DNA from: an uncultured Lachnospiraceae bacterium | Lineage (GTDB): Bacteria; Bacillota; Clostridia; Lachnospirales; Lachnospiraceae | Length of the DNA stretch: 64,000 nt | Direction of reading: 5' to 3' | NCBI GenBank assembly: GCA_900316395.1 | Contig: ONCT01000003.1 | Span: 1-64,000 of the forward strand | Shown here: in pieces, positions 35,774 to 62,682 of the stretch | Layout of the letters: every line of letters begins with the position of its first letter | Numbering within the stretch: position 1 is the first letter of the stretch | The notes under the pieces: model-generated | What the model was told of the DNA's origin: nothing | The model's input: the letters and a program-made list of their open reading frames with translations, nothing else | The model's database searches: none | Translations under genes and position numbers: made by a program

Positions 35774-35879
35774 TAATTCTTATTAAGAGTGGTGGAGATA
35801 GTATGGATCGACGAAGCCACAGCAACCCCCGAATATGGGAAGGTGCTCACCGAAGCGAGTTATCGAACAATAAGAATTA
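35774..35879 (+). promoter_or_regulatory. SAM-I (S-box) riboswitch
   Basis: The conserved SAM-I core is legible. An 11-bp P1 helix (TAATTCTTATT at 35774-35784 with AATAAGAATTA at 35869-35879) encloses AAGAGTGGTGGAG, GAAGCCACAGCAACC and AAGGTGCTCACC. A terminator hairpin follows 9 nt after P1. High SAM should stabilise P1 and let the terminator form, turning off metK and anything cotranscribed. Identification rests on the consensus elements; the aptamer is the normal length. Confidence 0.92.
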
Positions 35880-61456: not shown

Positions 61457-61489
61457 AATAGACACATATTTCTTGACATATTATTTTTC

Positions 61490-61523
61490 AAGGGCTAACA
61501 TATATATGTTAGCCCTTGTTTTG
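61490..61523 (+). terminator. Palindromic terminator after the third chemoreceptor
   Basis: The 28 bases 61490-61517 are fully self-complementary (arms AAGGGCTAACATA and TATGTTAGCCCTT) and are followed by a short, interrupted T-run. It separates the chemoreceptor from the corA leader. Confidence 0.8.
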
Positions 61524-61563
61524 TGGTTAATAATAATTATTGAAGGAAAGAAGGTGACCATTC

Positions 61564-61632
61564 ATGGAATCAGACGGGTATTTATACTTTGTAACATATG
61601 AATCATTGAATAGTTGCCTTGTTTTGAACTAG
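61564..61632 (+). CDS. Candidate 22-codon leader peptide upstream of corA
   Basis: ATG (61564) to TAG (61632) encodes a 22-residue peptide beginning MESDGYLYFVTYESLNS. An AAGGTGA site lies about 7 nt upstream. Its last codons run through the left arm of the corA leader stem (61601-61621), so ribosomes on it would disrupt that structure. Salmonella corA also has a regulatory leader ORF (corL), but no sequence similarity is claimed. Translation is unproven. Confidence 0.4.
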   Translation: MESDGYLYFVTYESLNSCLVLN

Positions 61633-61717
61633 TATTATTTCTGTGCGATATTCTTCGCATTTTCTCAAGGCACTATTCTGATGAATGATTGTAGCAACTA
61701 AAAGTGATACTCACTTT
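61601..61717 (+). promoter_or_regulatory. Structured corA leader with alternative pairings
   Basis: The arms 61601-61621 and 61666-61690 form a long stem: AATCATT/AATGATT, GAATAG/CTATTC and TGCCTTG/CAAGGCA, with one bulged T and a 5-nt bulge. Inside it is a hairpin TGCGA/TCGCA (61644-61659). TAGTTGC (61611-61617) can instead pair perfectly with GCAACTA (61694-61700). A separate hairpin AAAGTGA-TAC-TCACTTT (61701-61717) sits just before the ribosome binding site. It does not match the M-box consensus I know. A regulatory role is inferred. Confidence 0.6.
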
Positions 61718-61740
61718 GCGCAATCAGGAAGGAGGGAATA

Positions 61741-62682
61741 GTGGTAAAAATATATAGAACAGAAGATAATATAATAAGTGAGCTTCAAGCATACGAAGAG
61801 GGCTCATGGATTAATATGGTAGCTCCTTCGTTAGAAGAATGTGTGGATATTAGCGAGCAGTTTAATATTGACATTGATGACCTAAGAGCTGCTCTTGATG
61901 ATGAGGAGAGTTCTCGTATTAATCTTGAAGATGATTACACACTGATATTAGTAGATATCCCTTCAGCAGAAATGCGTAATAATCGCCATTCTTATACAAC
62001 AATTCCTCTTGGTATTGTTCTGCTTGAGAATACAATTATTACTGTTTGTGCCGAGGAGACAGCAGTACTTAAGATATTTATTGAGCAGCGTGTAAGAGAA
62101 TTCTCTACTAAGAAGCAGATGAGATTTACATATCAGATTCTTTATAATACATGTATTGTATATCAGAGCCTGCTTCGTAATATTGACAGAAAAAGAACAG
62201 AGATAGAAGAGCGAATCAACGAGACAACACAGGACGTTGACCTTGTTGACCTTCATGAATTAGAGTCTAACCTGGTTTATTTCGCCACATCGCTTCGTGC
62301 TAATGGCGTAGTTTTAGACAGGCTGACTCGCTATGGTAAGCTTAGACAATATTCAGAGGACAGGGAATTATTAGAGGATGTAATAATTGAGAATCAACAG
62401 GCTATAGAGATGACACAGATATATAGAGATATTATTAATGGTACAAGAGAGCTGATGTCATCTGTTATTAACAATCGGCTTAACAATGTCATGAAGTACT
62501 TGGCAGCCATTACAATTGTTATGTCTATTCCAACTATTATATCAGGATTATATGGAATGAACGTTGTATCAGAGGGCATGCCCTTTGCCGACACACCCTG
62601 GGGATTCGGAATAATTACTGGAATAACAGTAATAATATGTGTAATCGCTCTTATTGTTTTGAAACGAAGGAAGATGCTATAA
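61741..62682 (+). CDS. corA: CorA-family magnesium/divalent cation transporter
   Basis: The 313-residue pentameric channel has an acidic, helical cytoplasmic domain (1-250) with a long stalk helix (RTEIEERINETTQDVDLVDLHELESNLVYF). Two C-terminal transmembrane helices are joined by the signature loop YGMNV near residue 271. Starts with GTG 4-5 nt after AGGAGGG. The gene follows a long structured leader and a possible leader ORF. Its 3' end overlaps the convergent methyltransferase gene by 32 bp. Mg2+ is the usual substrate; Co2+ or Ni2+ also possible. Confidence 0.94.
   Translation: MVKIYRTEDNIISELQAYEEGSWINMVAPSLEECVDISEQFNIDIDDLRAALDDEESSRINLEDDYTLILVDIPSAEMRNNRHSYTTIPLGIVLLENTIITVCAEETAVLKIFIEQRVREFSTKKQMRFTYQILYNTCIVYQSLLRNIDRKRTEIEERINETTQDVDLVDLHELESNLVYFATSLRANGVVLDRLTRYGKLRQYSEDRELLEDVIIENQQAIEMTQIYRDIINGTRELMSSVINNRLNNVMKYLAAITIVMSIPTIISGLYGMNVVSEGMPFADTPWGFGIITGITVIICVIALIVLKRRKML

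Follow-up and report, generated by a model that had tools for sequence, protein, structure and literature searches.

A four-segment leader with a short acidic-start open reading frame ahead of corA in a Lachnospiraceae bacterium: a candidate translational Mg2+ switch

The window, a stretch of 64,000 nucleotides from the start of contig ONCT01000003.1 of an uncultured Lachnospiraceae bacterium, carries a chemoreceptor gene, the last base of which is 61456, and, downstream of it, corA; the features between the two are listed in Table 1. An earlier note, made from the sequence of the window, had placed a chemoreceptor terminator ahead of the corA leader and an intrinsic terminator was identified there, the stem of which was also present in congeners L003, L004 and L005. 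A promoter-like site at 61473-61501 scored at chance level and was rejected. The 3′-ends of corA and of a convergent SAM-dependent methyltransferase gene were found to overlap by approximately 30 bases (62651-62682).

Table 1. Features of the corA leader region, in window coordinates
Feature	Position	Strand	Evidence
Intrinsic terminator belonging to the chemoreceptor gene upstream; divides gene from leader	61489..61518	+	13-bp stem containing 6 GC pairs, with a T-run
Segment 1: leader Shine-Dalgarno AAGGTG and spacer, partner of segment 2	61551..61563	+	12 pairs, 11-12/12 in five genomes
Leader ORF MESDGYLYFVTYESLNSCLVLN, 22 codons, acidic codons 2 and 4	61564..61632	+	MESDG/MDADG in five genus genomes
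Segment 2 (core 61608-61620): forms the left arm in the ON stem; all within the leader ORF	61601..61621	+	forms 20 pairs with segment 3 (z -4.2)
Segment 3: alternative partners segment 2 (ON) or corA start region (OFF)	61666..61691	+	rank 0/20 shuffles, shared complementarity
Small hairpin AAGTGA-TAC-TCACTT within the OFF fold	61702..61716	+	6/6 pairs in five genomes
CAATCA, inner OFF partner of TGATTG 61686-61691	61721..61726	+	all 6 pairs in four genomes, 5 of 6 in G006
corA Shine-Dalgarno region GGAAGGAGG	61727..61735	+	sequence
Segment 4: GAATAGTG, holds the corA start codon (GTG) and pairs with 61671-61678 over 8 bp without mismatch	61736..61743	+	
corA, Mg2+ transporter, 313 aa, GTG start	61741..62682	+	PF01544, E 1.1e-55

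The leader ORF is preceded by a good Shine-Dalgarno sequence, 7 nucleotides upstream of the ATG, and the 22-codon ORF described in the earlier note stands. Its 3′-end does not lie within the left arm of the large stem, as had been stated; the ORF spans the whole arm and the stop codon (61630-61632) is some ten bases beyond it. The ORF was kept in four of the seven congeners, which with the window's own genome makes five of the eight in the genus, and acidic residues near the start (E2/D4 or D2/D4) were encoded by all five leaders. These were Glu2 and Asp4 in the window peptide and Asp2 and Asp4 in three congeners. No proline was found in the window's leader peptide, unlike MgtL and most relatives, and this is a weak point of the Mg2+-responsive attenuator that is proposed below. 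Congeners L006, L007 and L008 (genomes G003, G004 and G005) had no leader; here corA was directly behind the chemoreceptor gene or within approximately 100 nucleotides of it, and neither terminator nor leader was seen. The control cassette has been lost or gained within one genus.

Analysis of the possible RNA pairings revealed the plan of a four-segment attenuator (1:2, 2:3 and 3:4) in which the corA start codon is inside segment 4. The 2:3 stem (61601-61621 with 61666-61690) is the large imperfect stem that the earlier note had recognised; it had a dG of -26.4 and a z of -4.2, and 0 of 500 dinucleotide shuffles were equally stable. In the 3:4 fold, the right arm CACTATTC (61671-61678) is perfectly complementary to GAATAGTG (61736-61743) at the corA start codon, and a second part is formed by TGATTG (61686-61691) with CAATCA (61721-61726). 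This fold had a z of -4.8, was equalled by 0/500 shuffles and retained 14/14 pairs in four of five genomes. The 1:2 pairing joins the leader Shine-Dalgarno region AAGGTGACCATTC (61551-61563) to GAATAGTTGCCTT (61608-61620) through 12 pairs, and taken alone this hairpin was less exceptional (z -1.9, 24/500 shuffles as stable). Fold analysis showed that 1:2 together with 3:4 closes the corA start and that 2:3 opens it. The hairpin that had been noticed before the corA ribosome binding site (61702-61716) was recovered with 6/6 pairs in all five leader-bearing genomes of the genus. The 7-bp alternative pairing that had been proposed with it (61611-61617 with 61694-61700) was complete in the window and in G002 (7/7) but fell to 4-5/7 in G001, G007 and G006, and is probably fortuitous.

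Comparison with the congeners revealed fewer differences in the paired segments than in the rest of the leader for G007 (3/78 vs 27/121, p 2e-4), G001 (5/78 vs 28/121, p 0.002) and G006 (15/78 vs 48/121, p 0.003); the corresponding figures for G002 were 0/78 vs 5/121 (p 0.16). As the paired sequences vary hardly at all among congeners, this pattern shows constraint rather than covariation. The folds of G006 were partly degraded (2:3 16/20, 3:4 10/14), with a shared-complementarity rank of 7/20.

Ensemble folding of 61545-61760 was carried out with or without a ribosome footprint placed on the leader. With no ribosome the probability of 1:2 was 1.00 and that of 3:4 was 0.985, such that the corA start was closed. 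A ribosome on the leader start gave a probability of 0.96-0.99 for 2:3 and of 0.01-0.04 for 3:4, and a ribosome at the leader stop returned 3:4 to 0.996. In silico, mutually exclusive folds ahead of a Mg2+ transporter gene are thus switched by the position of the leader ribosome. The suggestion that leader translation could choose between two folds was in this respect upheld, with the correction that the alternative to 2:3 is the 3:4 fold and not the pairing first named.

The 3:4 fold also bears on the level at which corA would be controlled. Enteric corA is subject to Rho-dependent attenuation through corL (PMC11552253), and the same transcriptional mechanism, as in enteric corL/mgtL, could operate here in place of control of corA translation. 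The alternative stem of the window reaches the corA start codon itself, with no T-run after the stem, and the segment 3 of many relatives also pairs with the region of the corA ribosome binding site, which makes Rho-dependent attenuation improbable in our judgement. In enteric mgtL and corL, which act mainly via Rho-dependent termination, a leader ORF also precedes a Mg2+ transporter gene, the folds are mutually exclusive and the leader Shine-Dalgarno is buried in one of them (PMC11282234, PMC11552253), whereas here it is the corA start codon that the fold closes.

A search of the whole of Rfam 15 returned no match to the leader at gathering score and nothing credible at a relaxed E<=5, and so a credible match to an unrelated family was not found either. 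The sole Rfam match within the window was a SAM (S-box) riboswitch at 35777-35876. The M-box (RF00380), which controls Mg2+ transport in cis in Firmicutes, as is proposed for this leader, but does so through an aptamer, had no covariance-model match in the leader or anywhere in the eight genomes of the genus. Additionally, MgtE was not found in any of the eight genomes and no MgtA scored over the cut-off. As the genus was found to have no M-box, no MgtE and no above-cut-off MgtA, this CorA may be its main Mg2+ importer. The stability of the folds, and the report that Mg2+-dependent folding alone affects termination in Salmonella mgtA (PMC11552253), would suit an RNA that binds Mg2+ directly, as a riboswitch, with the ORF incidental. 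We regard this as very improbable, given the lack of a credible Rfam match and of a conserved aptamer core among the family leaders described below, in which the segment sequences differ from genus to genus and the ORF start is the conserved part.

Regions upstream of corA were gathered from whole-genome and named-genome collections, giving 215 distinct regions. A region was scored as having a leader when an ORF behind a Shine-Dalgarno sequence encoded an acidic residue at its second position and opened as xGP, x[DE][GPSA] or a related form. By this measure 66 of the 215 had a leader, the start of which resembled M[DE]x[GDE][PG]; dinucleotide shuffles gave 1.27 +/- 0.96 and the reverse strand gave 1. 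Leader starts in the family included MESGPSPR, MEGGPSPR, MEGVPGS, MDGDPGC, MELEPSS and MEPDSYPGPSTPP, and starts resembling that of the window (MEGDGHIRG, MDSDGHIRG and MESDSHG) were found in other genera. The figure of 66 is an undercount, as L195 has an overlapping MESDIHYR leader and L042, L049, L135 and L138 carry xGS variants.

These variants were as follows. In L195, which had been counted as leaderless, the leader MESDIHYRAEE starts approximately 65 nucleotides before corA and overlaps the corA start; the flank of its Shine-Dalgarno, GGTGGCAAATCC, is nearly complementary to GGATTTGTCACC at the corA ribosome binding site, and this is perhaps a two-segment version of the switch. Variant leaders of the form M[DE][SG]GS.YH..., with GS replacing GP, precede corA in L042, L049, L062, L135 and L138. 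Additionally, L099, from an uncultured Clostridia genome, has the leader MEPDSYPGPSTPPKRRIAE 134 nucleotides before corA, which starts with M-E-P-D like enteric MgtL (EPDP motif), a likeness that is likely to reflect convergence.

A tally that was blind to sequence took all Shine-Dalgarno-preceded ATG ORFs starting 95-200 nucleotides before corA (n=59). This revealed that codon 2 encoded D/E in 75% of them and that codon 5 encoded P in 54%; among ORFs 200-380 nucleotides upstream of corA the proportions were 10% and 6% respectively. Within the motif, synonymous codons varied (AGC, AGT, TCT and TCA for Ser; CCT, CCC and CCG for Pro) and E and D were interchanged, and for this reason it seems to be the leader peptide, and not merely the RNA, that has been conserved. 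The check for leader ORF conservation was positive both in the genus (5/8 genomes) and in the acidic-start family found before corA across Lachnospiraceae. A pattern that was blind to corA (Shine-Dalgarno and M[DE]xGP) gave six matches in 397 genomes, all six of which were just before corA by coordinates, and the reversed pattern gave none. The equivalent pattern for the window-type leader was too short for specificity (13 matches in 200 genomes) and was set aside; in the window's own genome its sole match was the corA leader. On a CorA tree the window-type leaders grouped with others of their type, in a supported clade where seven of the 15 rows had such leaders, and the leaders overall required approximately 20 gains or losses, half the number for shuffled labels.

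To see whether the family shares the fold plan, 60 distinct leaders were examined for a single segment 3 with strong complementarity both to a segment 2 upstream of it and to the region of the corA ribosome binding site. In 45 of the 60 the native value was reached by <=1/20 shuffles where 5.7 were expected, with relatedness among the leaders ignored. The mean, likewise ignoring relatedness, was 11.41 kcal/mol compared with 7.71 +/- 0.17 in shuffles for the shared segment 3, and the pairing of segment 1 at the leader start with segment 2 gave 11.87 compared with 8.40 +/- 0.34. Leaderless corA regions performed at chance in the shared segment 3 test (16/128 vs 12.2 expected); L049 and L135, which had been scored as leaderless, beat all shuffles. 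The effect of moving the ribosome from leader start to leader stop on the accessibility of the corA start was 0.122 across the leader family, compared with 0.039 +/- 0.014 in shuffles, again with relatedness ignored. In many xGP leaders segment 2 begins so near the leader's stop codon, within a few bases, that it would be covered by a ribosome terminating there.

RNAalifold applied to 35 aligned xGP-type leaders found no consensus fold past 8 pairs because neither the sequence nor the position of the segments is constant, which is why complementarity was tested sequence by sequence. Position-wise covariation in six aligned subgroups was modest, with 14 two-sided changes vs 43 broken cells for 3:4 and 6 vs 67 for 2:3. 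The covariation check thus gave complementarity above chance in the leaders and, column by column, a modest signal with many broken pairs, which we do not claim as proof.

The closest mechanistic parallel to this anatomy is the translational mgtQ-mgtB system of Salmonella, and not the Rho-dependent mgtL/corL. In mgtQ, a short ORF with early acidic codons (Asp2/Glu5), stems 1:2, 2:3 and 3:4 control mgtB translation, and 2:3 is favoured when a ribosome occupies region 1, such that the ribosome binding site of the Mg2+ transporter gene becomes free (PMC8092293), as is predicted here. It differs in having 8 codons, in lying inside the mgtC-mgtB operon and in serving another transporter, whereas the leader described here has 22 codons and precedes corA in Lachnospiraceae; no sequence relation between the two is apparent. 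The EPDP motif of MgtL, which includes Glu2 and Asp4, causes ribosome drop-off at low Mg2+, although early acidic residues by themselves are not always sufficient (PMC11282234). The MESD and MDAD starts of the genus match the acidic codons 2 and 4 of MgtL, the prolines of which are missing from the window peptide. By its anatomy, then, the corA leader would work like mgtQ, mgtL and corL, to which no homology was found. The description of the leader as a translation-coupled, corL/mgtL-like element in a Firmicute and without an M-box was supported by the conservation of the ORF and by the Rfam, M-box and MgtE searches, with mgtQ-mgtB taking the place of corL/mgtL as the nearest counterpart.

We consider it probable that the leader is a translational attenuator that reads the position of the leader ribosome and that its signal is, most likely, low cytosolic Mg2+. 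By default, segments 1:2 and 3:4 would be paired and the corA start codon closed by 3:4. At sufficient Mg2+ the leader would be translated in full, and a ribosome at its stop would cover segment 2 such that 3:4 forms and corA stays closed. Ribosomes held near the leader start, by pausing or by repeated loading and drop-off at E2/D4, would mask segment 1 and leave segment 2 free to form 2:3, by which corA would be opened. Pausing or dense reloading would be needed because free RNA returns to 1:2 and 3:4, and a brief drop-off would leave the switch OFF. Low Mg2+ is proposed to keep ribosomes near the leader start because the window shares Glu2/Asp4, the stems and a Mg2+ transporter gene with MgtL/mgtQ; as is reported of enteric MgtL and MgtQ, it would destabilise ribosomes that carry a short acidic nascent chain (acidic-proline in relatives).

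The same translational attenuator could instead respond to another signal, such as charged tRNA, an antibiotic or the general speed of translation, through codon stalling, as classical attenuators have this 1-2-3-4 layout too, and it does not in itself identify a signal. We think this unlikely. The leader has no run of codons for a single amino acid and the feature conserved across genera is the acidic/proline start, residues that work in enteric Mg2+ leaders (PMC11282234, PMC8092293); furthermore, the specific leader pattern matched only before corA. Low Mg2+ acting on an acidic nascent chain remains the signal that we favour.

The earlier observation is thus partly confirmed and its interpretation partly supported, and the finding now extends beyond the single leader to a family. 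A literature search, the coverage of which left out most subscription journals, found no such leaders in Firmicutes. We lean slightly towards the view that the corA leaders of Lachnospiraceae and neighbouring Clostridia (M[DE]x[G/D/E][P/G]) form a widespread class, so far undescribed, of Mg2+ switches that act on translation, in which a ribosome-destabilising start senses cytosolic Mg2+ and opens corA, and which evolved independently of enteric MgtL/CorL/MgtQ. If so, Mg2+ sensing through the stability of a ribosome with a short acidic nascent chain would have arisen more than once and would not be confined to enterics, and dominant gut Firmicutes would regulate an apparent main Mg2+ importer in this way. 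The dozens of natural leaders, with their varied peptides, would then be a test set for the nascent-chain features behind ribosome drop-off at low Mg2+.
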